Virus record (IMG/VR): IMGVR_UViG_3300025770_000052
Coordinates: 1 to 35,793 of that record
DNA: 35,793 nt
Direction: 5' to 3' (one strand)
DNA from: a virus
Below the pieces are notes generated by a model. That model had not been told where the DNA came from. It made no database searches and saw only the letters and a list, made by a program, of their open reading frames with translations. Both the position numbers and the translations under genes were made by a program. This document shows positions 8,071-25,085 of the stretch, one piece after another (position 1 is the stretch's first letter; every line of letters starts with the position of its first letter).

Positions 8071-10683
8071 TTATGATGTTGCTATGACTCTAAGGTCTTT
8101 AACTTTTGGCACATCACAAGTATTAATACCAATCATTACTATTTTTATACCAAATGATGTGAATTCTGGCAATGGTGTAGTCATACCTAAATCCATAGAT
8201 AATTCAGTATAATCATCAGGTTCTTTAGATATTATGTTATAATACCCTTCAGGATTATCTATTAAAGTATATTGCAGTTCTCTATAATTATCAGCATCAG
8301 AGTGTTTAAGTTTATAATACACATTAATATCACTACCCAACGGTATATGAACACTTAATGCAATCCTTAATGAAGTTGCTGGATTAAGTAGTGCAACTTC
8401 TTTTGTGATATATTTACAATCAGCAGAACCGCCATTAGGTTCTAGTTCAGACACCCACCCATCATTTGCAATATACCCATCTTCGTTAATATTTGATGGG
8501 AGTTGATCACCATTACTGTTAATACTATATGTCGGATTATTTAATCTGTTAGACATACAAGTTGCGCTTATCCTTTGATTATCTATCATTGGTGTCAAAT
8601 AATCGGTGGTTGACGATAATATTGCTTTATATTGTAATGATGGTTCCCCACCAAAAAAATACTCATTCTCATGTGAAAATATATTACGTGGGGTATTAAA
8701 TTCTATAGCGCCCGAATCAGGCACAAATGGTGACCAACCAGTATCACGAATTCCAGGTTGTGATTGAGAATGTTGGGACGATCCTGATGTTGATTTTAAG
8801 AAGAATGAAACATCAGTTTCATCTAATATCACTCTTTGTATAGCTGGATATAAAATATCATATTTAGAATTTATATAAACTCTAGGTAAATCTTTAGTAT
8901 TATTTTTAATTGGAGTATATAATCCACTATTTGAGGGTACAATAGAAGTCCCAACAACTAAAGTCGATCTAACTGCATCATTAATAGACTTATCAGTAGA
9001 TGCATAATAATTCATTTTAGATTTTGAAACATCAATAGTAAAAGTATCCAATGATGTCTCTACAACTTCATGAACACCATTAATATCAGCTCCACTAATT
9101 GCACTATTAGTATCGGTGCCTCCATATAATGTATTTGGATATAATCCAGTTATTGCAACATAATATCTATTATTATATGACAGTTTATCATATAAATCGT
9201 GATTAAGTACTTTTATTATTACTTTAGAACTACCCTTTGTTATACGCATAGATGATAATCCTAATTTGGCACTAGAAGTATCATAATCATTTTCATCAAC
9301 AGATGTACTATTATACGTAACTATGGATGTGTTATTAATATCAAATTTAGCACGATATACTCTAAATTTAAGATCCTCCATTTGGTCAGCAGTCCATGTA
9401 GATGCATTCTGAGATTTAAAAAATACACCAGCGTATGGTTGTTCAGATATAATACCTTTACCGTCTAAAGATTCTTCACCTAATCTAGAAACATAACATC
9501 TATAATCTTGGGTGTCCGCTAAGATAACTATACAATATTCTACTCCACTTTTAAGATGAAATGGATATTTAAAAGTAAAAATACTTTCAGCCGTACCATC
9601 ATCAGATACCGTAATATCACGTGGGTGTAATTGAGTTTCTGCCATAACTATTTGTCCAGGAAATCCAGCAAGAGTATTACGAATTTGTACTCTAGCTTTA
9701 ATTTGGGGGCTACCTGGTTGTGGTTTAGTTGCAAAATATAGTCCAACGCGTGATATAAAAAATCCATCTGTTGGTTTTATTTCTAATGTTTGAGCCAACG
9801 GATCATACCAACCAGTTGTAGAAATCATTTTTCTTCCTAAACTAGTTGAGTCCAAATAACTAGCATCAACAGTCCCCATATCTTTACTTTCAAAGGTGGC
9901 AGAACGAACATCCACAACAGTTTCTTCTTGATGTTCTAAAATACCCCTTGCAGTATATTCTGTCTCACATGACGTTCCGGCATCTGCCGAATTATTAATT
10001 TGATCGGTTAATCTAAATACTCTATCACCAGTTCTAAATCTCAAACTCTCAGAATTTGGTATAGTAAATATACCATTAACACTACCTTCATTAGTTGTTG
10101 TGATAGCACCAGAACCACCATCAATCCAAGAATTGGATTTATATTTTCCGATTCTAAAAGTTTCTCCAGGTTTTAATGACATAGACAAAAACATTTCTTC
10201 ATCATCTACAAACGACTTAGGATCTAAATTATTAGTAACCGTATACACAATTTCATCGGGAACACCATCCCAAGCAATATCTACTATTCGGACAGTATGA
10301 CTTGAAGTTGACCCTGTTATATATATTTTAGGATCATCCTTTAAAAAGGCAGCATTAACTGGATCATTTACAGCAGACTCTGCCGATGGTTGTCCAGATG
10401 CATCAACCGTATCACGTAATATCATTTGAGAAGGAGTACTACAATATGCTGTTACATTTTCCCCATCAAAAAAAGCATACAACTTCGTATTTGGTTTCAT
10501 AGTATCTGCTGTAAATTTAACAATACGAGATCGTATAAATGGTACAAACTCTGTGCTAACTACACGTTTACCATATCGTTCTTGGTATTTCTTTTCATGT
10601 ATAGAATTAAACTTAACAGATTTGTGTGCCTTTACCTGTTGTATCGCAGTAACATCCGCATATGTATCATATCTTATTGACAT
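8071..10683 (-). CDS. Large virion structural protein, companion of the DUF4815 protein (870 aa)
   Basis: The product contains segments I recognise from large tail/baseplate structural proteins of T4-like cyanophages: VPFIRSRIVKFTADTMKPNT and LYAFFDGENVTAYC (~45-80), FTIPNSESLRFRTGDRVFRL (~210), a YTARGILEHQEETVV segment (~245), WYDPLAQTLEI followed by FFISRVGLYFATK (~285-315), and VQIRNTLAGFPGQIVM (~330). No membrane segments or catalytic motifs are seen. The start at 10683 has AAGGAAA at 10695-10689. In several cyanophages I recall comparable sequence in the same region as DUF4815, so these two genes may make one fibre or baseplate-periphery assembly; that is inference. The position equals where T4 encodes gp9-gp11, but no sequence match to them is claimed. 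Confidence 0.75.
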   Translation of the reverse strand: MSIRYDTYADVTAIQQVKAHKSVKFNSIHEKKYQERYGKRVVSTEFVPFIRSRIVKFTADTMKPNTKLYAFFDGENVTAYCSTPSQMILRDTVDASGQPSAESAVNDPVNAAFLKDDPKIYITGSTSSHTVRIVDIAWDGVPDEIVYTVTNNLDPKSFVDDEEMFLSMSLKPGETFRIGKYKSNSWIDGGSGAITTTNEGSVNGIFTIPNSESLRFRTGDRVFRLTDQINNSADAGTSCETEYTARGILEHQEETVVDVRSATFESKDMGTVDASYLDSTSLGRKMISTTGWYDPLAQTLEIKPTDGFFISRVGLYFATKPQPGSPQIKARVQIRNTLAGFPGQIVMAETQLHPRDITVSDDGTAESIFTFKYPFHLKSGVEYCIVILADTQDYRCYVSRLGEESLDGKGIISEQPYAGVFFKSQNASTWTADQMEDLKFRVYRAKFDINNTSIVTYNSTSVDENDYDTSSAKLGLSSMRITKGSSKVIIKVLNHDLYDKLSYNNRYYVAITGLYPNTLYGGTDTNSAISGADINGVHEVVETSLDTFTIDVSKSKMNYYASTDKSINDAVRSTLVVGTSIVPSNSGLYTPIKNNTKDLPRVYINSKYDILYPAIQRVILDETDVSFFLKSTSGSSQHSQSQPGIRDTGWSPFVPDSGAIEFNTPRNIFSHENEYFFGGEPSLQYKAILSSTTDYLTPMIDNQRISATCMSNRLNNPTYSINSNGDQLPSNINEDGYIANDGWVSELEPNGGSADCKYITKEVALLNPATSLRIALSVHIPLGSDINVYYKLKHSDADNYRELQYTLIDNPEGYYNIISKEPDDYTELSMDLGMTTPLPEFTSFGIKIVMIGINTCDVPKVKDLRVIATS

Positions 10684-10730: not shown

Positions 10731-13700
10731 TTAACTATGTCGAAATACCGTCGTTTGATTGCTATTCACGGTAGTTAAAGTGGTGCGACTCTCTTCTTCA
10801 ACTTCACCATATACTGTACCTAATGCACCTGATATTTCTGCCAATTCTTTAAATGTGGAATATTCATCACGGTCTATTTTAAGATCTGGGTTAGTTACAA
10901 CGTCACGCCAATCATCATTAGGTGGTTTTAATTCAACCGAACCTCTAAACGTAAATACGGCATAAGGGTTAACATTAACAGTTTTAGAACATTTTGGTTG
11001 GTCAATTACTAATTCATGTGTATATGGTAACATAACAACATCATCCAAACATACAAACCCTTCAGATTCACTTGGGTTAAATGTCATATTAACATTTTTC
11101 TCATTGAATTTAGGTCTTAACTCAGAAGTTCTCATATCAATAGAACACTGATAATCCGGATCTAAAATATCTCCAATATTATGTCCATCAAATGGTTCAA
11201 CTAAAAATCCATTTTTAAATCTATTATTACCATTAACATCTAGTATTTCCATATCAGAAGTATTTTTTTCTAATAAAGATAAACTCGTATAATATTCTAA
11301 AGTACTAACTCGTTGGTCAATTTTACCAATGTCGCGCATAGTATATCGTCTATTATCAATCATTGTTTTAATAACATCACCACTTGACGATGTAAACGGT
11401 AAAGCAAGTAATTCATATAAAACCATACCATCATCTGGCGTTTCTGGTAACAATGGTTCTATTGCAGATATTCCGTAAGCAACTTTAAAAAATCCATTTT
11501 TAGTTAAATATAATAAATCCCTTCTTGGTAAATATACTCTATAATCTGTTATTATATCAGAATTATTTAATGGATAATCTATCTTTTGTGTAGATATATC
11601 ATTACTTAACAATACTCTATCAGTAATTTTTCCAGCTGTTGCCGCGGGTCTAAAATCAAAATATGAAGACAATTTCTGTTTTCTATAAGTCGGAACATCA
11701 TCATATTCGACATTAGTATATGAGTCAACTATTGCAAATGATCCAGAACTATGTTCAAAAAAAGAATACACAACTATCATTCTACCAATACAAGGGTCAT
11801 AACCACGTTTTACATTTAAATATCCCAAATTAATAACTTCATTCCGCTGTCCGTCATCTAAATTATAAGAATCTGTAATATCATATAATGGTAATGGGGA
11901 TGTACTGTCATCTGTCCAATCCATAGAATTAGTATTTGCCAAAAAACGTTCTTCCATTTCTTCATAAAATGGAGATAATTCACCAGTAGCACTAGGACTA
12001 TATGCCCAAGGGTTAAGTCCAGTTTTTTCAAAATAATTAAAAGCATCAGAAGCATACTGTAATTGTTCAACCGACATACTATTAATTAATTCAGTTTCAT
12101 TATCTAAATTTATTCTATATACAAGATTATCAATATTTACAGTATCATATATTCTATCCACCTCACATATATCAGAATGTTTTAATTGTACATTTTTCAT
12201 AGTATATTCACCACGATACTCAACCGGTGATACAGCATCATACATAATACCAGAGCTCGTAGTATAAGTTGTTGAATTCGTTTTAATCATATCAAGGTTA
12301 AACGATGAGGCAATAGCCGAAGATATGTCGGAATTACCTGACCCCAAATTAGTTACAGAAAACCCGTCTATGGCATCACCCGTATTATCAACCAATGAAT
12401 ATGGTAACTCAATAACATTATAAACCTTTCGTTTAAGTTTCTCTACCGCTTCCGTTTTCACTATAGGAATATATATATCAATTGTGGAAAAACTATTCCA
12501 ATCTGTCGGGTTGGATATATCCACAGTTCTATAATTATTAGAAAATGTCACCATCGATGACGTTATTTTATGAACTACTCCCAAAAGGCCGGTACTGCTA
12601 TTAGTATATGAAAAATAATAACGCTCATCAAATGCCATAAATTTTTCAAAAGAGTTATCACTTAAAGTTAAAGTGATAGAACCATTTGCAACTGATGTAT
12701 CTGAATATAATCTAAGAAATTTATATGAAGTATCAATGGAAACACTACCAGTAACTTCATCAACATGTCTTACAGTTTTTATATAAGAACTCTCTAATGG
12801 TATTAATGAACCAGAACCAGATATATCTATAATTGATTTAGATGTTATTATTCCACCAGTATCACGTTTTATAAGATCTGATATAGTCCCCGAATTACCC
12901 ACCCAATCACCACCAGAACCAATATATTCACCCGAACCAATATTATCACCAACATTAAACATATTAGTATTAACTGTTTCTCCTGTACTATATTCAGAAC
13001 TACCCAAATGTTTGATAATAATATTACCAGAATCTGAATAATAAACATTTCCAACCGTTTTATTATTAAGACCAAACTTCTTATACGCTATGGCTTTATT
13101 TCCAACATCAATAGACCCAACACCATTACTAACAATATTATAAGATACTAATGTTGATGCACTAAATGTCCATGTACCATTTATAGAAGGTCTAGAAGAT
13201 ACTGACCTAATATGTTCACTAGTATACTTATTACCAGAAATATCTGAGTCATATTCAATATCAGAAATAAATAATTTAAATATGGCACTTCTCTCATCGG
13301 ATGTAGTTGGCCTAGTTCTAGAATGAGATAATCCATTAGCAATACTACCACTACTCGATAAATATTCAAATCCTTTAACTCTTGCAGTTGCAACTACACG
13401 CACCCCTAAAGTATTCTCAGTTGTATTTTGAATATTATATACACTAGTGCCCCATAAAGAATCACTATGAATTCTAGTATCAGTATGTAATATATTTATG
13501 ATTGCGTTATTGATATCGAAATCGGGTTTGGTTACATAAAATTGGCAACCTTTATCAAGTATTGGAGTATTATAAAAATTAACTCTAGACCCCACTTCGG
13601 GTACGCCAGATATATCCGATATATATATGAAAGATCCAAGTCCAGTATTAATATATTCATTATTCCGTTGTATACTGTCTAATGCCTTTTTATATGGTAT

Positions 13701-15008
13701 ATACTTTGTATTCCTACTTCTAATATTCCATCCAAAAACATAAGCATTACCTCTCTCAATACCAAGTGATAAATGCTCATCAAAAACATCCATCATATCG
13801 TCATGAGTTTTACCTGGATAAAATATTGTATTATCTATTTCTAAATTTTGATAAGGATAATTAATTTTATCCTGTAATGATACATTATGAATTAATGGTA
13901 CATCATTAATACCATCAAATAATTTAGTATTAATAAAATTATCAATTACAAACTTTTCTGCCAATAATGGGTCAATGAATTTTAAAGAATCAACATTGAC
14001 AACACCTCTATTACTATCTTTATTAAAATATTCTCTAACATCCAATCCAAACGGAGACACCGTATAATGTCCAGATTCGTCATATGTACGTCTAGCTAAT
14101 ATTTCCATCCAATTAAACATACCGTCGTCACGGTCTATTAACTCTTCGACTCCATTTTTAACGCCCAACAACTGAATAAAATTCTCTGTTAAATTCTCAT
14201 CATAAGGTATTGTTGTAAATAATAAATTCACTTTATATCTATCAGCACCTGGCGAATTATAATTAGTTGACCCCTGTGCATTATCAAATAACGAACTATC
14301 GTCATATACTGATACTATTTCTTCCTGTAAAAACAACCCAATCTTATATGATGGTTCATCTGAATATCTATCCAACGATATAGTCTGTCTAAAAACATTT
14401 ACTAAATTGCCGTCAATATAATAAATACCATTATCTATATGTGCAATAGACCCCAACCCAATAGATGGGGCGTGTGATGCTATGTCAATAGATATTTCAC
14501 ACTGGTATGCCGATAATGGTATTGTTGTTGGTCTTCCATCATCATCTAAAACAAAACCATCAACCGTATTTAATATATCCCCTATAGAATATGACACATC
14601 ACCAGAATCGTTATTAGAACCTGTTCTGTATTTTATAAAAAGTGTATCCGTCATATTATCATCATCCAAAATTGATGATTCTACATGAACAACCGTGGCC
14701 AAAATACCTATTGTATTTATAATATCTCTACCAACAAAATCCGACACCGCATTATATGATGATCCAACAGACCTAATTACTTTTATATACGTGATTCCAA
14801 TATCCATAGAGGTTCCACCTGGAACTACCATTGCCCCATTTTTATAAAACGAATCGGATAAATTTGAAATTTGTTTTTGTAAAATCGACTGTATCTGTGT
14901 CAATTCCCTAGCCTGCACACTATATCCAGGTTTAAATAATATTTTCAAAAAACCTTTATCATTATCAAAATCATCATGATATGGAGTAGTATTTAAATTT
15001 ATAGTCAT
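10731..15008 (-). CDS. DUF4815 virion structural protein (1425 aa)
   Basis: The N-terminus shows the DUF4815 signature seen in T4-like marine phages: PYHDDFDNDKGFLKILFKPG, then YSVQARELTQIQSILQKQIS and MVVPGG (residues 8-66). A long Ser/Gly/Asp-rich beta region fills the middle. A second conserved block lies near the C-terminus: YLPRRDLLYLTKNGFFKVAYG, then YTMRDIGKIDQRVSTLEYY, then GNNRFKNGFLVEPF and SELRPKF. The family is known as a virion structural component; the exact site (fibre or baseplate periphery) is not established here. The gene follows gp8 by 42 bases, with a possible AATAAATA late-promoter-like box in the gap. No strong Shine-Dalgarno is seen (GAGAA ~10 bases upstream). Its 3' neighbour appears to carry the companion part. 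Confidence 0.82.
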   Translation of the reverse strand: MTINLNTTPYHDDFDNDKGFLKILFKPGYSVQARELTQIQSILQKQISNLSDSFYKNGAMVVPGGTSMDIGITYIKVIRSVGSSYNAVSDFVGRDIINTIGILATVVHVESSILDDDNMTDTLFIKYRTGSNNDSGDVSYSIGDILNTVDGFVLDDDGRPTTIPLSAYQCEISIDIASHAPSIGLGSIAHIDNGIYYIDGNLVNVFRQTISLDRYSDEPSYKIGLFLQEEIVSVYDDSSLFDNAQGSTNYNSPGADRYKVNLLFTTIPYDENLTENFIQLLGVKNGVEELIDRDDGMFNWMEILARRTYDESGHYTVSPFGLDVREYFNKDSNRGVVNVDSLKFIDPLLAEKFVIDNFINTKLFDGINDVPLIHNVSLQDKINYPYQNLEIDNTIFYPGKTHDDMMDVFDEHLSLGIERGNAYVFGWNIRSRNTKYIPYKKALDSIQRNNEYINTGLGSFIYISDISGVPEVGSRVNFYNTPILDKGCQFYVTKPDFDINNAIINILHTDTRIHSDSLWGTSVYNIQNTTENTLGVRVVATARVKGFEYLSSSGSIANGLSHSRTRPTTSDERSAIFKLFISDIEYDSDISGNKYTSEHIRSVSSRPSINGTWTFSASTLVSYNIVSNGVGSIDVGNKAIAYKKFGLNNKTVGNVYYSDSGNIIIKHLGSSEYSTGETVNTNMFNVGDNIGSGEYIGSGGDWVGNSGTISDLIKRDTGGIITSKSIIDISGSGSLIPLESSYIKTVRHVDEVTGSVSIDTSYKFLRLYSDTSVANGSITLTLSDNSFEKFMAFDERYYFSYTNSSTGLLGVVHKITSSMVTFSNNYRTVDISNPTDWNSFSTIDIYIPIVKTEAVEKLKRKVYNVIELPYSLVDNTGDAIDGFSVTNLGSGNSDISSAIASSFNLDMIKTNSTTYTTSSGIMYDAVSPVEYRGEYTMKNVQLKHSDICEVDRIYDTVNIDNLVYRINLDNETELINSMSVEQLQYASDAFNYFEKTGLNPWAYSPSATGELSPFYEEMEERFLANTNSMDWTDDSTSPLPLYDITDSYNLDDGQRNEVINLGYLNVKRGYDPCIGRMIVVYSFFEHSSGSFAIVDSYTNVEYDDVPTYRKQKLSSYFDFRPAATAGKITDRVLLSNDISTQKIDYPLNNSDIITDYRVYLPRRDLLYLTKNGFFKVAYGISAIEPLLPETPDDGMVLYELLALPFTSSSGDVIKTMIDNRRYTMRDIGKIDQRVSTLEYYTSLSLLEKNTSDMEILDVNGNNRFKNGFLVEPFDGHNIGDILDPDYQCSIDMRTSELRPKFNEKNVNMTFNPSESEGFVCLDDVVMLPYTHELVIDQPKCSKTVNVNPYAVFTFRGSVELKPPNDDWRDVVTNPDLKIDRDEYSTFKELAEISGALGTVYGEVEEESRTTLTTVNSNQTTVFRHS

Positions 15009-15044: not shown

Positions 15045-15052
15045 TATTTATT
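15045..15052 (-). promoter_or_regulatory. Possible late promoter before the DUF4815 gene
   Basis: AATAAATA on the minus strand, one mismatch from TATAAATA, overlapping the gp8 stop. A start near 15038 would give a ~30-base leader to the ATG at 15008. Weak evidence for the same compositional reason. Confidence 0.3.
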
Positions 15053-16781
15053 AGAATTCAAATACAACTTTTATATCTTCTATTTGATCTATAGCACGTG
15101 ACACCGGCTGTCTATTCTCAATATATAATACTTTACCTCGTCCACGTTTTACGTCAAATGACTTCTCATTAGTAGTTTCATAATTAGGATGATTTGGTCC
15201 TCTATACATTTCATTTTGTGCAATCATATTATTATAAGAATTTATAGGGTCACTTATAATACTAACCTGTCTAAACACTGACTCATTACCAGATACGGGG
15301 AAAAATGGAATAGTTTTAGAAACATTTAAATCGTCCCCCAACGTTGCCTGTTCATCATACTCTAGTTTTAAAGAAATCATACCATAATATGCCCCCAACT
15401 CTTCGACCGCATTAAACCCGTGTCCGTGTAGAGGTGATATGATTGGTCTAACTTTGCACTCAACAAACCCTAGAGCATTCTCAGTGACATTACCTGCCCC
15501 TAATGAGACATTACCATCACCATAAGTATAGTCAATACCTTTATTTAATATTACCACCCTATTAACTTCATTAGTAGTAATACGTGCGTATCCAGAAAAT
15601 CCAGTTCCATCACCGGTTACAATAACAGAAGGTGCTATAATTATCGTCTGTATAGTTCCCAACTCCGCAGTTGTAAACGTGAACGGTGTTTCTACACTCC
15701 ATGTGAGATTCCCACCACTCACTACATTATCAATACCAGCATTAGTAGTATGTAATACTCTAAATGCCCCTGAATCAACAGCAGAGGTGGTTTGAATATA
15801 TATAGAATATCCAGTAAAATCAACCCCGTCAACGACACTTGCTGGTAATGAACCAGTACCAGTATTTAATGAGGAAAGAATTGAAGAAGTTAGGGTTGTC
15901 ACTATTATATTGTCATTATATCCATGCCCACTAGATTGTGTTGTATCTAATACATCAGGGTCACTACCGTCATCTGGTAATACTCTAACCCAATCAATTC
16001 GTCCAGAATTTAAAGATGACTGTGCATTTTCTTTTATTTGCCACTGTGTATAATCTGCCGTATTTATTGAACCAGGATCTGATGATATAAATTTAACAGG
16101 CATATAATCTTTTGTTAAAAATTGAATAGCATCTAACATAAAGATAGAATACATATATTTCCAAACGTAACCATCCGCAGTTTCAAATGGTTCACCTACC
16201 AAAGACCCACTAGGGGATATGGTTGACGGCACTTTAGTGACACCGGTTGTCCCATTCCACTTAGAATTATTAAGACACTTATATACAGAATATTGATTAT
16301 CAGTACCAACCAACACATATCCATTAGGAATAATAGATTCACTTCTAGTATTATCATACATTTCATATACAATACCAGATGTCCAATCTATCCTTGGGGC
16401 AGATAATGTTATACTGTCAGGGTTAACACGTTTTATAGATGTTAAATTAGATAGTATATCAAACGAACCAGAAACCGAATCATCTGGGGTTGGGGGGTTG
16501 GCATCATCCCACCATTGTGAAGACTTACCTACTCCTAAATAAATATTATTATAGTGTGATTGTGTATAATATAACCAATTATTTGTAACTCCTGTTGCAT
16601 GTGTAGGTGCAATATCCACTGGAATATCATCTATTGCAATATAAAGTCGTTTCTGATGTAATACTGTATCACCACTGCTATAGGTGGTGGCAGATCTCCA
16701 TTGAGGAGCATTCAATTTTATAGATTCTATAAATTGTTGTGCATTAAATATTCTTAATTTATTTGTTATAATCGCCGACAT
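15051..16781 (-). CDS. 8: Baseplate wedge subunit gp8
   Basis: A 576-aa protein located between gp7 and the peripheral structural genes, as in T4-like phages. Diagnostic segments for the cyanophage-type gp8 are FNAQQFIESI near the N-terminus, NNIYLGVGKSSQWWDDANPP (~78), TPDDS, YKCLNN (~165), and ETADGYVWKYMYSI (~200). Gp8 is a dimeric part of the baseplate wedge, joined to gp7 and gp10 in T4. The length is greater than T4 gp8 (334 aa) but fits the longer cyanophage form. An AAAGGA lies 8 bases before the ATG at 16781. The 28-base gap from gp7 argues for cotranscription. Confidence 0.85.
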   Translation of the reverse strand: MSAIITNKLRIFNAQQFIESIKLNAPQWRSATTYSSGDTVLHQKRLYIAIDDIPVDIAPTHATGVTNNWLYYTQSHYNNIYLGVGKSSQWWDDANPPTPDDSVSGSFDILSNLTSIKRVNPDSITLSAPRIDWTSGIVYEMYDNTRSESIIPNGYVLVGTDNQYSVYKCLNNSKWNGTTGVTKVPSTISPSGSLVGEPFETADGYVWKYMYSIFMLDAIQFLTKDYMPVKFISSDPGSINTADYTQWQIKENAQSSLNSGRIDWVRVLPDDGSDPDVLDTTQSSGHGYNDNIIVTTLTSSILSSLNTGTGSLPASVVDGVDFTGYSIYIQTTSAVDSGAFRVLHTTNAGIDNVVSGGNLTWSVETPFTFTTAELGTIQTIIIAPSVIVTGDGTGFSGYARITTNEVNRVVILNKGIDYTYGDGNVSLGAGNVTENALGFVECKVRPIISPLHGHGFNAVEELGAYYGMISLKLEYDEQATLGDDLNVSKTIPFFPVSGNESVFRQVSIISDPINSYNNMIAQNEMYRGPNHPNYETTNEKSFDVKRGRGKVLYIENRQPVSRAIDQIEDIKVVFEF

Positions 16782-16809: not shown

Positions 16810-19800
16810 TTAATCTCTTAGTTCTTTTATCATATTTAAATCATTGACATTCCAAGTAGACCGCGGGATGGTATCTTTGGTATATATTGTCATTATTGAT
16901 TCATGTCCAACATTCACTCTCTCATGACTATAATTAGTTATATCATTTATCTTATAGTTTAAAAAATCATTATCCTTAAACCACTGTGGTGTATTGTAAA
17001 ATTTCATACGTTCTATTGATTTATATGTCATACCAGATATCTTATTATATTTAGTATCCGTATCTTCTTCTGTTACAATCAATATTTTAGGCAATATATC
17101 TATCTCTGAATCTAATACCGCATGATAATTACGTTCATATAAAGATTCTATTATCTCTATAGTAGACGATGGCCAGATATGGTCACCATAATCAGTTATA
17201 CCTAAATTCTTATTGAAATAATGGTTGAATTCCTCAATTCTCATCATAGGAGTTATTATATTCTCTACAATAACTGGATATTTTTCTATATCAACTCCAT
17301 GTCGCAAAACCTTCATGACATCTTTTATTGTAGTCTCACCGTCATTATCAATATCCCACCTAGCAACTCCATTAACTTCTGACATCAAGAATTTTTTAAG
17401 TTTCTTAATTCTTGGTGGATTATGAACTATATCAGTTGCTATTTCAAGTGCAATATCGTGTACCAGTTCACTAATATCTACTGTATCATATTTATAATTA
17501 AATTGTTTTAAATTATAATAAGTCCACAACGTCTCATCTATAAATCTATCAGATATATCAACTATAGATTTAATAACATTTGTCTTATTGTATGTATATT
17601 GTCTAGGTGTCGTCCCATCTATGACACCACTAACTTTATAATTAGTATACGGTGACACTAACACTTCATCAACATTAGTATATCTATATTTCATGAGTTG
17701 TTTATACTCAGTACCAGATCTAAATCTGAACTTCGTCCTCTCTAGAGACTTAGTAGATACTCCTAACGTTGGTATTTGATGCAACCTCTTATTCAACCTT
17801 ATCACAAACTTATCATCCCTCGCATCACCACCATTTGCGACAGACCCTACCCAATTATTCGACGATGACTCCACATTGCCACGTGACCTACTATCCCACC
17901 GTATCTCTACAACATTCGGGTAATCTGATTTTATTTCATTAGTCGTATTATCATATGGACCCTCTCCATCCGGTATTTCTCCCATAGATATAACATAATC
18001 CACACCCAGAATAACATACCCCCCCATAAACTTCACAGAGAGAACTTGGAACCTGCCCCAATTATAACTGCTATCATAATATTTAAATACGTCTCGCCGT
18101 TTATAAATAACAAAATACGACCCGATAATGTTGTCATCTTCAAAATAAGACAACATGGATTTTTCAAACATGTCTTTGTTGTTGAGGCCGACGAAAGTGA
18201 TTGACGACCAAGGGTCACTATCAACAACTGGGGTTTGTCCAACGTCAGAAAGGTTAATATCTTTATACAACCCATACCTACCACCGCCAGAATCAACAGT
18301 TGACAACATGTTTATAACACCACCAACATGATCGGTTAATACTACACCACTATTATCATCAACGTGTACATGTGATGTGTCACTTTCTAAATATTGTGTA
18401 GTATCCTGAACCCCTGTCATTGGTTCATCACCAAATTGTAAATTATCATAATACATAATGTCGTGATGTGCTGCTCCCAATACATCATTAATATCAATTA
18501 ATTCATCTGACATTTCTAATAAATTAGTACTACTGTTAAGTGTTATGTTTCTAGTCCATTTCCCAGCAGCATCCATATTATCAACTGTCAATTCTACATT
18601 TTTAATAATTTCATATAATATGGCACTTGACGCTATTGTAATATCCTTTCTATCTACAACTTCCGTCTCCAAAACAAATTCACCAAACATCATCATTCCT
18701 GCAGGATGAAGTATTTGTTTAACAACATCACGCCATTTATCAATTACAACACCACACCTCAATACATAAGAATAATCTTGCCACAACAACCCATCATGAA
18801 TTTTATCATCTGCTGACGGATACCCTTTGCGATTACTAAAATATCCTTCTCTCACACATAACGGTCCTGTTTTAACATTTATAACCGCTTTACCATTACC
18901 AATCGTAGATAAGTCAAATGTTGGTGGAATGTCATATCCAATACCAAAATCAGTATATAATGAATGTTTAATACTTAAAACACTAACATTTTTCACAGAA
19001 CCGATACTACTACCAATAGTTTTAAATATAGCACCAGATCCAACTGACTGATAATCATCAGTCCAATACGAAACATATGCACTAGGTAACGATTGATATC
19101 CATATCCACCATAAATAACTTTAACTTTAGTTATAGCTCCCCTTGACTTATTATTAAATACTATCTTCATAGTATGCCAGTCAGGTAAGGTATATGCAAT
19201 CAACGACGTATTATTAACAAAATCACCATTAAAAGATCGTTTCCATAACGTCAATATATTATTATCAATTTCCCACTCATCATCTTCAAGAGTAACATTA
19301 GTCCTAATAGGATTCATATCCCAATATTTTATATTACTAACAGACCCACCAACACTATAATCTTCAAATCGTTTTCCAACCGATACCCTAAATGTGGCAT
19401 ATATACCATTACATAAATCAGTTACTGGTGGAATACCTGAAACAATAGAAGTACTGTTAGGTGCATTATCCCAATCTATATTACCACCAATAATAAAAGC
19501 ATCCTCTACATATGTTAACTCATAATTTGCAAAATATCTATCAAATTCTTGAATTAACAACATTGGTGAAATTATTAATTCATGTAAATATCGTAAATGT
19601 TTATAAGATACCCTATGTTTTAATAAATCAATTACATCTGATATAGACGTACTACCATCAAAATTAATATCACTTCTTTTATAAGTAGTATTGTTAAGTA
19701 TAACATCTTCTTGTAAAAAATTATATAAATCAACATCCTTCTGTGCAGAACCAACTAAAATGCCACCCAATTCATGGGATACTGCCTCTAAAGCTTCGCC

Positions 19801-22800
19801 CCACCCATATATCATATCATTATGATTTTTAGCAAATGGTGCAGAAGTTATAGCAAATGGAGTAAATGATTGTTCAAAGGTTGATGCTGTTGCAACCCCA
19901 TTAATATGCAAACTACATTTATTAGTATTCATATTAATGTAACAAGATAGATGCATCCAATCATCAGGTGAAACATTAACGTTAGCATAATCTATAACAG
20001 GAATGTCTGTGGCATTAAATATAATACTACCACCACTCGCATCATTTACTTCCAATCTAAACCACAACCCACCAATATCAGTAGTATTCGCAGCACATTC
20101 TTGCCATAATACTATCTTATTTGTATGTGGTGTATCAAAAAGAGAACATAATGAAAATAAAGTACATTGTGTTGGGTAATAATTATTCGTAGACCCCGCG
20201 ATATATATTTTAGTAGGTTTATACCAAAAGTCTATAGTAAAATCGTCAGGATAAAGATCAGCTGGGGAATTATTACATTTAGATAATGACTCTCCAAGTC
20301 CTTTGACATACAAATATCCATTTTCAAAAGATAAAGTAGTCTGATCACCAAACACATGAGAATCTAATCCGGTTGGATTTATATATGAACCACTATTATT
20401 AGAAATACATTCATTTTTATTTAAAGTATATTCTTGAGAAAATGACGTACCATTGGGGTCTTCAATATGACATAACCCATCACGATTACCATGATTTGTC
20501 ACATATGATCCAACCTTTTGCAAATCAAACATATTCATATGATTAGAATATGCAACACCAGAATCTTCATTAAAATCTAATAACAATAAGTTGGAATTAT
20601 AATGTATGTCTATATTAGTAATAACAATAGACGTATAGTATGAATAGGATATATCCCACACAGGACTACCAGATATATCGGATATATCAAATTGAGCAAA
20701 TCTACCAGCTGCAAGTGATGGGTCTTGTATCCACTCCCCAGAATATTCAGTAACAGGTGAGAAACATTTTTCTATTTTAGCTATAGCACCAGACCCGAAT
20801 GTTCCATCTTCTATAAATGATATCAATTCCCCCTCTATGTAACCATCCCCACCTTCTACAACCTCCACCCCACTAACGTTACCGTTACTTATATCACTAA
20901 TATAACTACTAAATCCCTGCCCACTTCCACTGTCAGATATATATATATCCAATAATCTATTCATGGGGTAATCCGATCCACCGTTAAGTATGTCAACACC
21001 AATAGCACATTCGTAAAGTTGTTCAATGTGAGTTTGTAACTTTTCATCACCACCTAAAGAATATACCATAACTGTTTCTTTAGTAAGAAACTCTCCATGT
21101 TGTATATTAGATAAGAAATACTCAATGGCATATAATCCGTTTATATTATGTGTTACATATCTATCAACGGTTGCCGTAGTACCACTAACTACACCTACAA
21201 CATCAACTGGATTATAATTCACATTATTATAGTTAGTCATAACCCCATCGGCATCCCTATAAGGAACACAACGTATACTTGTATCAGACACCCATATATT
21301 ATTACTTGGTTTAAATAAATGATTTTTGGGATAGAAAAAATTCACATCTTTATTATAAAATGCATGAAATATAAATTCGTATGATTTCTCTGAACCTTTA
21401 TTTCTATAAAACTCTTTCATAAACTTAAGAAATTGTTTCTTATTACTATACCTAGCCTTCACCGGCATTGTAGTCTCATCAGTGGAAGCCGACTCTTCAC
21501 TAAAATATTCTCTATTAACTGTATACTCGACTTTAAATACTACTTGTGACTTAAGAGTAACAATATCATTTCCATTTAAAAACCTGAGAGTATTGCCATC
21601 TACTATATAATTACTATCGTCTAAAACTTGATAATCGGTACTACCATGATATTGAAGAATTTTAATCGTTAAACTGATAAAAGAATATAAGGAATTCTCA
21701 ACCTTAATACGTAGAGTTACGGAATTATTTAATTTAGTTCTAACCTCATCTGGTATAAATAAACGTGGACCATTCAACTCATTTGTAGTAAAATTCAACC
21801 ATGTAGAACCATTATCAAATGAAGCATATACAACACACGTTCCACCACCACTACCAATTATACTGTCTGGTTGAATTTTAAAAACATTACCATAACTTAT
21901 AACTATTCCAGTATCATACTCAAAATCACTTTGGGGTGAACCAGGGTTCGTATGTGATATTACTACAGTTCCTGTCAAATATCCAGAAAGAAAATTAATC
22001 TTAGCAGGAGTCTCGTTAGTATAACCAGTACCACCATATCCTATACTATAACCATTAACCCCACCATCTACTACCGTCATTATTACTTGTCCGTTATTAT
22101 CCCCACCATTAACGTCCACATAATATACCCCATCGGTTAAAAAATAACCATTATATCCATCGGTAAAAATAGTATCAATTGATCCACTTAGATTATATGT
22201 GAAATATGATTTTGGTGCTATAGCATACTCAGTATGCATACCATATCCAGCCTCATCTTGATTATTAAAAAAATCTACATCAGTCATTTTAATATCAGTA
22301 TACCCATCACCACCATTAACTTTATTAACTGATGTTATATATGAGTTCTCTACTTTAATTGATAAAACACCACCCTTATTATCAACATTAACATAAAATA
22401 TACCATCTGTCCATCCACTAGATTCTCCATCATATATAACATCAGATATCCTACCTTTTTGTAATATTAAACTCTTACTATCGTCTGATGGATCAACTAT
22501 CGTTGTTTCTTCGATTTTAAAGATAAATTCTGGCAACTCTATAACTTTATAATTAGGATTAAATGACAACGATTTAAGTATATCATCACGATCCATCGTT
22601 ATTCTATTGTTATACTCAGATATTTCACTATATGTACTTGATGTATCTGAAATTTGATTACTTAATACACCAACATCTATAAAATCATAACTATTAACAT
22701 ACACCTTAATAAGTTTAACTTTAACTTTAACATCTAAGTCCTCATAATATGATGGTTCATAATATGATAAATCATATATTGACACCACACCATTTGATAT

Positions 22801-23157
22801 GAAATTGTCTGACTCATATGTTATTTTATTAAATGTTCGATTAGATGAAGATGATATATTCTTTGGAGACACTTCATCTCTAAATCGTTGTAAAGATACT
22901 ACATCGGGTATTGTTGATGCCAATTCAGATTTAAATTGATCGATAAATATATCTATAGTATAATCTATATCTGAAAATTCAGTAATACGTGATAACAAGT
23001 CAATTTGTCCATATTCACGTTCCATCCACTCATAATACAATTCTAGGAATTGTATAAAATTATCATATTCACCTTCATCATTATCTACCGACATCCACAT
23101 CGGTAACTGTGTTCTAATACCCTCCGATATATGATTTATAAAGTTCATTTTTTTCAT
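16810..23157 (-). CDS. 7: Giant baseplate wedge protein gp7 with LamG and dockerin-like insertions (2115 aa)
   Basis: Placed between gp6 and gp8. The N-terminus (LPMWMSVDNDEGEYDNFIQF, ELYYEWMER) and the KGSEKSYEFIFHAFY...FYPKNHLFK region (~585-625) are typical of gp7 from marine T4-like phages. GG.GY/GSGA beta-repeat segments follow (~240-380, ~735-790, ~1330-1400), and a conserved end-type block SYVLRCGVVIDKWRDVV...HPAGMMMFGE reaches ~1495. T4 gp7 is 1032 aa, so this is about twice as long. Two additions are visible: a LamG-like lectin domain (~945-1110) joined to a dockerin-like module (~1145-1205), and a C-terminal extension (~1500-2115) ending in a second copy of that module (~1920-1980). 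The ATG at 23157 overlaps the gp6 stop (ATGA); another ATG lies three codons in. Gp7 organises each wedge and contacts gp10, gp8, gp6 and gp53 in T4. Confidence 0.82.
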   Translation of the reverse strand: MKKMNFINHISEGIRTQLPMWMSVDNDEGEYDNFIQFLELYYEWMEREYGQIDLLSRITEFSDIDYTIDIFIDQFKSELASTIPDVVSLQRFRDEVSPKNISSSSNRTFNKITYESDNFISNGVVSIYDLSYYEPSYYEDLDVKVKVKLIKVYVNSYDFIDVGVLSNQISDTSSTYSEISEYNNRITMDRDDILKSLSFNPNYKVIELPEFIFKIEETTIVDPSDDSKSLILQKGRISDVIYDGESSGWTDGIFYVNVDNKGGVLSIKVENSYITSVNKVNGGDGYTDIKMTDVDFFNNQDEAGYGMHTEYAIAPKSYFTYNLSGSIDTIFTDGYNGYFLTDGVYYVDVNGGDNNGQVIMTVVDGGVNGYSIGYGGTGYTNETPAKINFLSGYLTGTVVISHTNPGSPQSDFEYDTGIVISYGNVFKIQPDSIIGSGGGTCVVYASFDNGSTWLNFTTNELNGPRLFIPDEVRTKLNNSVTLRIKVENSLYSFISLTIKILQYHGSTDYQVLDDSNYIVDGNTLRFLNGNDIVTLKSQVVFKVEYTVNREYFSEESASTDETTMPVKARYSNKKQFLKFMKEFYRNKGSEKSYEFIFHAFYNKDVNFFYPKNHLFKPSNNIWVSDTSIRCVPYRDADGVMTNYNNVNYNPVDVVGVVSGTTATVDRYVTHNINGLYAIEYFLSNIQHGEFLTKETVMVYSLGGDEKLQTHIEQLYECAIGVDILNGGSDYPMNRLLDIYISDSGSGQGFSSYISDISNGNVSGVEVVEGGDGYIEGELISFIEDGTFGSGAIAKIEKCFSPVTEYSGEWIQDPSLAAGRFAQFDISDISGSPVWDISYSYYTSIVITNIDIHYNSNLLLLDFNEDSGVAYSNHMNMFDLQKVGSYVTNHGNRDGLCHIEDPNGTSFSQEYTLNKNECISNNSGSYINPTGLDSHVFGDQTTLSFENGYLYVKGLGESLSKCNNSPADLYPDDFTIDFWYKPTKIYIAGSTNNYYPTQCTLFSLCSLFDTPHTNKIVLWQECAANTTDIGGLWFRLEVNDASGGSIIFNATDIPVIDYANVNVSPDDWMHLSCYINMNTNKCSLHINGVATASTFEQSFTPFAITSAPFAKNHNDMIYGWGEALEAVSHELGGILVGSAQKDVDLYNFLQEDVILNNTTYKRSDINFDGSTSISDVIDLLKHRVSYKHLRYLHELIISPMLLIQEFDRYFANYELTYVEDAFIIGGNIDWDNAPNSTSIVSGIPPVTDLCNGIYATFRVSVGKRFEDYSVGGSVSNIKYWDMNPIRTNVTLEDDEWEIDNNILTLWKRSFNGDFVNNTSLIAYTLPDWHTMKIVFNNKSRGAITKVKVIYGGYGYQSLPSAYVSYWTDDYQSVGSGAIFKTIGSSIGSVKNVSVLSIKHSLYTDFGIGYDIPPTFDLSTIGNGKAVINVKTGPLCVREGYFSNRKGYPSADDKIHDGLLWQDYSYVLRCGVVIDKWRDVVKQILHPAGMMMFGEFVLETEVVDRKDITIASSAILYEIIKNVELTVDNMDAAGKWTRNITLNSSTNLLEMSDELIDINDVLGAAHHDIMYYDNLQFGDEPMTGVQDTTQYLESDTSHVHVDDNSGVVLTDHVGGVINMLSTVDSGGGRYGLYKDINLSDVGQTPVVDSDPWSSITFVGLNNKDMFEKSMLSYFEDDNIIGSYFVIYKRRDVFKYYDSSYNWGRFQVLSVKFMGGYVILGVDYVISMGEIPDGEGPYDNTTNEIKSDYPNVVEIRWDSRSRGNVESSSNNWVGSVANGGDARDDKFVIRLNKRLHQIPTLGVSTKSLERTKFRFRSGTEYKQLMKYRYTNVDEVLVSPYTNYKVSGVIDGTTPRQYTYNKTNVIKSIVDISDRFIDETLWTYYNLKQFNYKYDTVDISELVHDIALEIATDIVHNPPRIKKLKKFLMSEVNGVARWDIDNDGETTIKDVMKVLRHGVDIEKYPVIVENIITPMMRIEEFNHYFNKNLGITDYGDHIWPSSTIEIIESLYERNYHAVLDSEIDILPKILIVTEEDTDTKYNKISGMTYKSIERMKFYNTPQWFKDNDFLNYKINDITNYSHERVNVGHESIMTIYTKDTIPRSTWNVNDLNMIKELRD
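17210..17400 (-). repeat. Dockerin-like EF-hand module, copy 2 (within gp7)
   Basis: Residues about 1920-1980 of gp7. The loop DIDNDGETTIKD occupies 1935-1946, with D1935, D1937, D1939, G1940 and D1946 at EF-hand positions 1, 3, 5, 6 and 12, followed by VMKVLRHGV. It then continues with VENIITPMMRIEEFNHYF, matching copy 1 (LHELIISPMLLIQEFDRYF) in spacing and most hydrophobic positions. Both copies are preceded by a short FL..(D/E)V segment. This shows an internal duplication of the module. Confidence 0.6.
19530..19725 (-). repeat. Dockerin-like EF-hand module, copy 1 (within gp7)
   Basis: Residues about 1145-1205 of gp7. The loop DINFDGSTSISD occupies 1163-1174, with D1163, N1165, D1167, G1168 and D1174 at EF-hand positions 1, 3, 5, 6 and 12, followed by a VIDLLKHRV helix as in dockerin type I. 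A second helix region (LHELIISPMLLIQEFDRYF) follows. The same order of elements recurs about 770 residues later. Ca2+ binding is inferred from the ligand spacing. Confidence 0.6.
19800..20325 (-). other. LamG/concanavalin-A-like domain within gp7
   Basis: Residues about 945-1110 of gp7 follow the laminin-G/pentraxin-like pattern: LSFENGYLYVKG, then DDFTIDFWYKP (D971 onward), then LWFRLEVN, then DDWMHLSCYINMNTNKCSLH with W1067, and HINGVATAS. The pattern FTI(D/E)FW...W.H....(R/N)......(L/V)..NG is characteristic of LamG_3-type folds, which bind carbohydrate or other ligands with Ca2+ in many proteins. It lies directly before the first dockerin-like module. Limits are approximate. A jelly-roll carbohydrate-binding module of another family is an alternative. 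Confidence 0.6.
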
Positions 23158-25085
23158 AATATCTTAACAGAATGTACACTGTTATCTAACGTATATATCT
23201 CATTAGACTTTGCTCTAACATTCAATGTAATCACATCAATATATAATATTTGATTTTCCCTTGCATAAATATCAGGTGATTCTAATACACAAGTAATAGT
23301 TATATCAGTTGCATCTTCTTCTTTCTGTAATATAATATCTCGGATAGTTACTATACCAGTATCATAATCAATATCAGATATCACAAATGGATTATCATAC
23401 CTATTCCCCTCACCATCATGAGTATATGCCACTAACTTACCCACCTTATCATCTGAAAATAAATATTCCCTATCGTCACCGATCAACTTAAATTTAGTAG
23501 ATGTTATAGTACCACGTTTAATCCTATTAGAAAACTTAGATACATAACTAATTTTAGATTCATGAATTTCATGTGAAATTGATACAGACACAGTTGTGAC
23601 ATTATTGGATATTGAATGATGAGTGTCATCTATAATAGATAGAAACCTAGAATATCTAAAGTAGTCTCCGAAACTATTCAACACATCATTTGAGTATTCC
23701 ATTATATTAGTACTAACCATTTCCACTATATCAGGTTCCGATAGTAGGGTAGATTGTGTATTATATTTAACTAATGTATTGATATTAATTTTAATATATG
23801 TCGGACTCATTAACATAGGCACTATGCCAATTACTGAATGATTCCTCTTTAATTTAAATTCTATATTATCACGTTCATGGTCTGATAGGTATAAAGAATT
23901 CTTTGGTTTTATTGATACTAAAACCTTACCATACATGGGTGGTACATTTTCTTCACCACCCCAAACATTAATAGAATCTATATTTGGATATATTTGTCGT
24001 AATATTTCTCTATAATCCTCAGCAGTAACTGCACGCCGTTGTGTAGAAAACTCTCTGGGAGCTGAATGTTTAATAGTCTTTATATCATCCTTATCATACC
24101 CACCCCAAGTCTTACCAACTACTGATGCTGAAATGGATGGAGCAGGAACGTGTGGTGGTGGTGTAACCCAATTCATATCACCAGATTTATTATTGGCGAT
24201 ACTACCCAAACAGTTAATATATTTAACATTTGCAATAGACCCAGTTGGTATATATTTACCTAATATACCATCACCGAAATATATTTCATACTGTTCATTA
24301 TATGACTCCTGTAAAAAATAAACCTTGGACTCAGAATCCAATTTCATATTATCATCTTCCAATGTATATATATTTGACTCAATTGAGGTTTCATTCGGTC
24401 TAACCGTAACTACCATACTTGTCGTGTCAATGTCTTGATTAGATATAAGATGATGTTGATTAATATCTTCATTATTAATAATAAAAACTTCTTCTACCTG
24501 ATTACCCTGAACCAATACCATATTATCTAATCTATATACATAATAATCATGTGGTGCCTCATACAGTATATCAATATCCTTCTTAGCATATTGTACATAC
24601 TTAGGAGTATAATAATGAATATTACCCTTTCCCGTATTAGAATTTAAAGTAAATACATCACCAGTACTAATTGGGAATTTATTATTAATAATCTTCTTGA
24701 CATTGCCATTAATATCTAGAACCTCATCAGAAATAAACATACTATCTGTAGTTAAATCATCTATCACCGATGCCTTTACTTTAAAAACTAAATCAACAAT
24801 AGCAGTTGCACTCTTATTCGATTTCGGCATATATCCAAGTAATTTACTTTTAGATACTACATTCTCTCTAAGTTTAGCAGTATCTAAAAACATTTCATTA
24901 GCTACCATGTTTAAATAAAATGCCTGGTGATGGGTATTATATGCCAACAAATCTATTAACGTATTTAACCCAGACCCCTCAAAATCATATGAGTTAAATG
25001 TTTGATCCGGATGACTCTTCATATAATTAATTATACTTGATTTTATATTATCAAAGTCTAATTCTGTAAGTTTTATATTTGACAT
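23154..25085 (-). CDS. 6: Baseplate wedge subunit gp6
   Basis: A 643-aa protein, close to T4 gp6 (660 aa), in the conserved order gp25-gp6-gp7. The N-terminus carries the gp6 signature: SGLNTLIDLLAYNTHHQAFY followed by NMVANEMFLDTAKLRENV and LLGYMPKS (about 35-92). The centre has the J-like segment APREFSTQRRAVTAEDYREI, then IYPNIDSINVWGGEE (about 340-378). Gp6 forms the continuous dodecameric ring around the baseplate hub and undergoes the hexagon-to-star change in T4. The stop codon overlaps the gp7 start. Only a weak Shine-Dalgarno is seen before the ATG at 25085. Confidence 0.92.
   Translation of the reverse strand: MSNIKLTELDFDNIKSSIINYMKSHPDQTFNSYDFEGSGLNTLIDLLAYNTHHQAFYLNMVANEMFLDTAKLRENVVSKSKLLGYMPKSNKSATAIVDLVFKVKASVIDDLTTDSMFISDEVLDINGNVKKIINNKFPISTGDVFTLNSNTGKGNIHYYTPKYVQYAKKDIDILYEAPHDYYVYRLDNMVLVQGNQVEEVFIINNEDINQHHLISNQDIDTTSMVVTVRPNETSIESNIYTLEDDNMKLDSESKVYFLQESYNEQYEIYFGDGILGKYIPTGSIANVKYINCLGSIANNKSGDMNWVTPPPHVPAPSISASVVGKTWGGYDKDDIKTIKHSAPREFSTQRRAVTAEDYREILRQIYPNIDSINVWGGEENVPPMYGKVLVSIKPKNSLYLSDHERDNIEFKLKRNHSVIGIVPMLMSPTYIKININTLVKYNTQSTLLSEPDIVEMVSTNIMEYSNDVLNSFGDYFRYSRFLSIIDDTHHSISNNVTTVSVSISHEIHESKISYVSKFSNRIKRGTITSTKFKLIGDDREYLFSDDKVGKLVAYTHDGEGNRYDNPFVISDIDYDTGIVTIRDIILQKEEDATDITITCVLESPDIYARENQILYIDVITLNVRAKSNEIYTLDNSVHSVKIL

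Follow-up and report, generated by a model that had tools for sequence, protein, structure and literature searches.

Why should a phage baseplate wedge protein contain two segments that resemble dockerins, the "plugs" of cellulose-degrading bacteria, and what might such segments do there? The question is raised by a 35.8-kb IMG/VR record of an uncultured virus of bacteria (IMGVR_UViG_3300025770_000052, positions 1 to 35,793, the whole of which we refer to as the window), which carries a T4-like tail operon encoding a tail tube cap, a gp53-like protein, hub/lysozyme (gp5), gp25, gp6, a gp7-like protein, gp8 and a DUF4815 protein.

The gp7-like wedge protein and its two modules

The initial annotation had placed both segments in a baseplate wedge protein, and this assignment holds. 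The gp7-like protein matches PF23786 (Baseplate_wedge) at 28.7 bits, above the cut-off of 27 (E = 1.2e-6), and phrog_17744 (baseplate wedge subunit) at 1.3e-42; it is flanked by gp6 and gp8 in the order gp25-gp6-gp7-gp8, as in cultured Kyanoviridae. The features on which the analysis draws are these:

15051..16781, minus strand: gp8-like wedge protein, context (PF09215, 7.9e-20)
16810..23157, minus strand: gp7-like baseplate wedge protein, 2115 aa, carrying both modules (PF23786, phrog_17744, gene order)
17203..17424, minus strand: module 2, residues ~1912-1985; helix KKLKKFL, loop, helix, then VENIITPMMRIEEFNHYF (profile, absence in locus L210)
17320..17355, minus strand: EF/dockerin-type loop of module 2, 12 residues, DIDNDGETTIKD, residues 1935-1946 (motif match)
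18568..18840, minus strand: conserved gp7 core, WQDYSYV...HPAGMMMFGE, residues ~1440-1530 (basis of the survey and tree)
19357..19407, minus strand: last LamG strand, after module 1, residues 1251-1267, GIYATFRVSVGKRFEDY, matching GFFGSMRFTSGQRYEEQ of L210 (alignment)
19510..19737, minus strand: module 1, residues ~1141-1216; helix LYNFL, YKR, calcium-type loop, helix, then HELIISPMLLIQEFDRYF (profile, paralogy, absence in L210)
19636..19671, minus strand: EF/dockerin-type loop of module 1, 12 residues, DINFDGSTSISD, residues 1163-1174 (motif match)
19738..20283, minus strand: LamG/concanavalin-A-like domain, larger N-terminal piece, residues 959-1140, interrupted by module 1 (Laminin_G_3, alignment with L210)
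23154..25085, minus strand: gp6-like wedge protein, context (Gp6-like_1st, 1.2e-14; phrog_219, 9.9e-135)

Elsewhere in the window, ORFs of 870 and 1425 aa adjoin at 8071-10683 and 10731-15008 (minus strand) and correspond to successive parts of phrog_358; the split is kept in L002, L007 and L009, and L031 has a single fused ORF of 2337 aa.

Both loops lie where they had first been reported, and read D1163-I-N-F-D-G-S-T-S-I-S-D1174 in module 1 and D1935-I-D-N-D-G-E-T-T-I-K-D1946 in module 2, with Thr at position 8, where Ile or Val is usual. The pattern D-x-[DNS]-x-[DNS]-G-x5-[DE] has no matches in the protein beyond these two. At least two matches to this loose pattern arose in 0.5% of 20,000 composition-preserving shuffles of the gp7-like protein, and two matches to the strict form D[ILVM][DN]xDGxxx[ILVM]xD in none of the 20,000. 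The likeness of the two modules (45% identity over 49 aa, blastp E ~1e-9 in a small local set) extends from an upstream helix (LxxFL) through the loop and into the second helical half II[ST]PM...[IQE]EF[DN].YF that had been noticed at the outset, and this second half is conserved between the copies equally with the loop. Against a profile of the module family, module 1 scores 1.1e-22 (19531-19737) and module 2 scores 2.3e-27 (17215-17409), with each sequence itself included in the profile. Duplication within gp7 is weakly supported as the origin of the two copies: the pair groups together in 76% of bootstrap trees, and module 2 is equally similar to modules of fibre proteins and to module 1.

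Comparison with dockerins and calmodulin-type EF-hands

Type I dockerins are defined by two Ca2+-binding loop-helix segments in each domain, and type III dockerins are missing the second canonical Ca2+ loop (PMC12484212). Both window modules have the dockerin-type loop (D1, N/D3, D5, G6, D12) followed by a helix, in agreement with the D-[IV]-[ND]-x-D-G-x-x-x-x-x-D loop and amphipathic helix of type I dockerins (PF00404; PDB 1ohz, 4fl4, 2y3n). They fall outside the two-loop type I definition because the second half, HELIISPMLLIQEFDRYF in module 1 and VENIITPMMRIEEFNHYF in module 2, contains no Asp-rich or calcium loop; each module thus has one loop rather than two, a different helical second half, and a place in a baseplate protein without a known cohesin. 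The single canonical loop recalls the type III dockerins of Ruminococcus (PMC12484212), with the difference that the sequence match is weak (E = 0.026 between the module-family profile and the ScaH dockerin, 8ajy). Calmodulin-type EF-hands share an Asp-rich loop of 12 residues with the window modules, but they have Glu at position 12 and a helix entering at the loop. Low-confidence models of the window modules place strand or coil before the loop, and position 12 is Asp in the two window loops as well as in 25 of the 25 loops listed, a collection partly selected for Asp12.

The initial annotation had proposed a search for PF00404 (Dockerin_1), and its outcome differs between the window protein, which scores 12.4 bits (E = 0.19) and misses the curated cut-off of 22.9, and three module-bearing gp7 homologues that pass it: L141 (25.7 bits), L147 (24.7 bits, E = 2.7e-5; retrieved through the gp7 core rather than the loop motif) and L089 (24.8 bits combined). 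A fourth homologue, L146, is under the cut-off. Searched in isolation against Pfam, the window modules matched neither dockerin nor EF-hand entries, and the whole window protein had no match in the PDB. The module-family profile has dockerins as its top four PDB matches (4fl4 at 1.4e-7, 2y3n, 2ccl and 1ohz), with calmodulins appearing only from ~0.1 upward, an E-value about a million-fold worse; this ranking comes from a profile that includes motif-selected members. A profile of the window clade, built with no motif selection, gave five weak PDB matches, two of them to dockerin-bearing chains. The family-profile matches align one loop-helix only, and the second helical half matches no dockerin half.

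We also considered predicted structures, as had been suggested for both modules. AlphaFold2 yielded low-confidence models for module 1 (mean pLDDT 62.0, pTM 0.47) and module 2 (65.6 and 0.41), each with a helix, short strands, the loop and then three helices. In Foldseek searches of the PDB, dockerins made up eight of the ten matches for the module 2 model and five of 23 for module 1, none individually significant (E >1; TM-score to dockerins at most 0.40), and we therefore base no fold claim on them. Foldseek against predicted viral proteins returned nothing meaningful. By sequence, each module combines one dockerin-type loop and helix with a helical half in which no second calcium loop is present. 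The original dockerin reading is partly right: the loop-helix half is of dockerin type, as the PDB ranking and the homologues over the cut-off indicate, and the single loop and the sub-threshold score of the window protein do not fit a complete dockerin.

It might be argued that the modules are relics, past metal binding, in which the motif survives as inherited decoration. Such a reading could draw on the Thr at loop position 8, on the score under the Dockerin_1 cut-off, and on L003, the most divergent member of the window clade, which has Ser for G6 in both loops and in module 1 a helix pattern that is strongly altered or lost. Yet every acidic ligand position is retained in both copies across the clade, with loop D1, N/D3, D5 and D12 invariant; both modules are kept in every close relative (gp7 78-100% identical) in which the region is covered; and the dN/dS of ~0.1-0.2 for module 2 indicates purifying selection. 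We regard a relic as very unlikely. In L003, the divergent loop and helix of module 1 (~10490-10570) lie between near-identical flanks (DSSTSTLDVNDFSDYKTS), with the ligand Asp/Asn residues retained.

Insertion into gp7 and recurrence in other tail proteins

The nearest module-free gp7 that we found, L210, is 33-35% identical to the window protein over ~1,100 residues, and a profile search found no module in it, though its LamG domain and both flanks are present. Module 1 sits between ILVGSAQ and GIYATFRVSVGKRFED, and the L210 equivalents are FYVGARQ and GFFGSMRFTSGQRYEE; since both flanks match L210, module 1 splits the LamG domain, separating its last two strands. The LamG assignment in the window protein (Laminin_G_3, residues 1029-1097, E = 3.7e-4) is at 21.1 bits, under the cut-off of 27.6, and its L210 counterpart is over the cut-off (1.3e-9). 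A conserved DHxW block is found downstream of module 2, which is absent from L210 although the flanks align. By these alignments, both modules are insertions relative to L210. A gp7-core tree (84 columns, with many forks unresolved and L145 a truncated fragment) places the module carriers in two groups, the window clade, adjoining L210, and a clade of L031, L089, L141 and L146-148. Two gains of modules in gp7 are possible on this evidence, as is a single gain plus losses.

The initial annotation had also suggested a survey of other gp7 proteins. Related modules are present in the second gp7 clade, at one to three copies per protein (three each in L146 and L147), as well as in nozzle, fibre and subtilase-like proteins of other uncultured viruses. 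The nozzle protein of L029 (PF25675, 1.8e-203) was retrieved with the window-clade alignment, and the window-clade HMM matches fibre-like proteins of L037 and L107 across most of the module (E ~3e-7, within the fetched loci). The module is likewise carried by the tail-fibre proteins of L126 and L134, by a LamG protein in L144 and by a subtilase-like protein in L135, and the protein of L037 is fibre/wedge-like; in each record, the module occurs in a single protein only. The subtilase-like phage protein of L135 (PF00082, 5.3e-29) has one copy, and the modules of L136 and L137 are near-copies of it.

Some of these carriers (L031, L037, L089, L125, L126, L133-L137, L141 and L144) came from motif scans that required the Asp/Gly loop positions, and loop conservation in the extended family is biased because the family was partly collected in this way. 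The survey by the gp7 core is free of that bias; L146 and L147 were obtained through its HPAG motif. Modules were present in 3 of 63 gp7-like proteins surveyed, a count that does not give their true frequency in gp7 because proteins were ranked for the survey by how similar they are to L089. Cultured Kyanoviridae wedge proteins (S-PM2, Syn1, Melnitz) have the identical operon slot and HPAG core but no module, and none of the nine cultured gp7 loci examined has one. When eight module queries were run by tblastn on 50,697 records of cultured phages, no match was credible; this is weak evidence of absence because BLAST is poorly suited to short, diverged modules. A first scan of genome contigs returned nothing, and a second returned dockerin-type loops from bacteria alone (a planctomycete and an acidimicrobial MAG), which matched in the loop part only.

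Other loop-bearing proteins were set aside or belong elsewhere. A motif-scan match in L034 was rejected as a loop alone, without a module, and about forty loci among L038-L115, whose viral proteins are for the most part 270-580 aa long and have a loop resembling YYRYDVNNDGRINISD, were excluded as a different family, apparently unrelated to gp7. The giant protein in the gp7 slot of P-SSM7 (L119) has a single EF-type loop, DENKDGVISQDE, at residue ~842 of the stretch. Viral proteins of L043 and L095 have classical two-loop dockerin-like repeats, internal in L043 and C-terminal in L095.

That such modules recur in several kinds of uncultured-phage tail protein suggests that they are a part open to reuse and not peculiar to this gp7. 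A single-loop dockerin-like module, with two copies in one baseplate wedge protein and relatives in other phage tail proteins, is a real and somewhat unexpected feature; in the small number of open-access papers located that name both dockerins and phages, such modules do not appear to be described in baseplate proteins.

Possible roles of the modules in the baseplate

We propose that each module folds as a compact helical knob around a single dockerin-type (F-hand) loop, with one Ca2+ probably stabilising it, and that it behaves as a mobile cassette inserted in exposed loops of gp7, between the last two LamG strands and in the C-terminal region. Calcium binding is likely, given the conservation of the ligands and, if the phage is marine, the abundance of Ca2+ in seawater. 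With less certainty, another virion protein, such as a fibre or a network component, would dock on the knob at the baseplate rim in a calcium-dependent way; we infer this because of the dockerin relationship, the exposed insertion sites and the reuse of the module in different tail proteins. Should each wedge contain a single gp7, the T4 arrangement, a baseplate would have six copies of each module. Taken whole, this is the explanation that we favour, tentatively and at somewhat less than an even chance.

A role in structure alone is almost as probable as docking. The modules may be Ca2+-stabilised spacers that keep the long inserts of gp7 folded and have no partner, a possibility we take seriously: they are inserted in loops of pre-existing domains, their second half is as conserved between copies as the loop, each record has one module-bearing protein, and 15 incomplete records yielded no cohesin. 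Yet the modules occur in very different proteins (nozzle, fibre, subtilase-like and LamG), for which a generic docking part is at least as good an explanation, and many cultured gp7 homologues are very long and nevertheless lack modules.

The initial annotation had further suggested looking for a cohesin-like partner elsewhere in the genome; a search for PF00963 in 15 phage records, all of them fragments, gave no match. A true dockerin-cohesin pair, in which the module docks on a cohesin-like domain of the virion or the host surface, would be in keeping with the Dockerin_1 matches of the homologues, the dockerin-first PDB ranking and the existence of type III dockerins without a second canonical Ca2+ loop (PMC12484212); against the missing PF00963 and a helical second half that aligns to no dockerin half, we think it very unlikely.

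Lastly, the two modules might bind each other, or pair across neighbouring gp7 chains, each contributing one F-hand to a two-loop dockerin-like unit. EF-type hands usually pair, and there are two single-loop copies within one chain here and three in other gp7 proteins, but L031 and several fibre proteins have one copy only and each module has a second helical half of its own; we consider mutual pairing highly improbable.

Returning to the calcium-stabilised docking knob, a broader version would see the single-loop dockerin modules as a family of interchangeable, calcium-gated plugs for adsorption parts (fibres, lectin-like domains, proteases) on the tail, exchanged among gp7, nozzle and fibre proteins, with a putative socket protein as counterpart; this we offer as speculation, and think it rather unlikely as a whole. 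At ~75 aa, the module is a small, expressible target for studying the calcium dependence of adsorption-apparatus assembly. If calcium binding and docking are both true, the modules would be a modular phage-tail attachment part borrowed from the dockerin system, or sharing ancestry with it, and would account for some of the mosaic make-up of very large wedge proteins.
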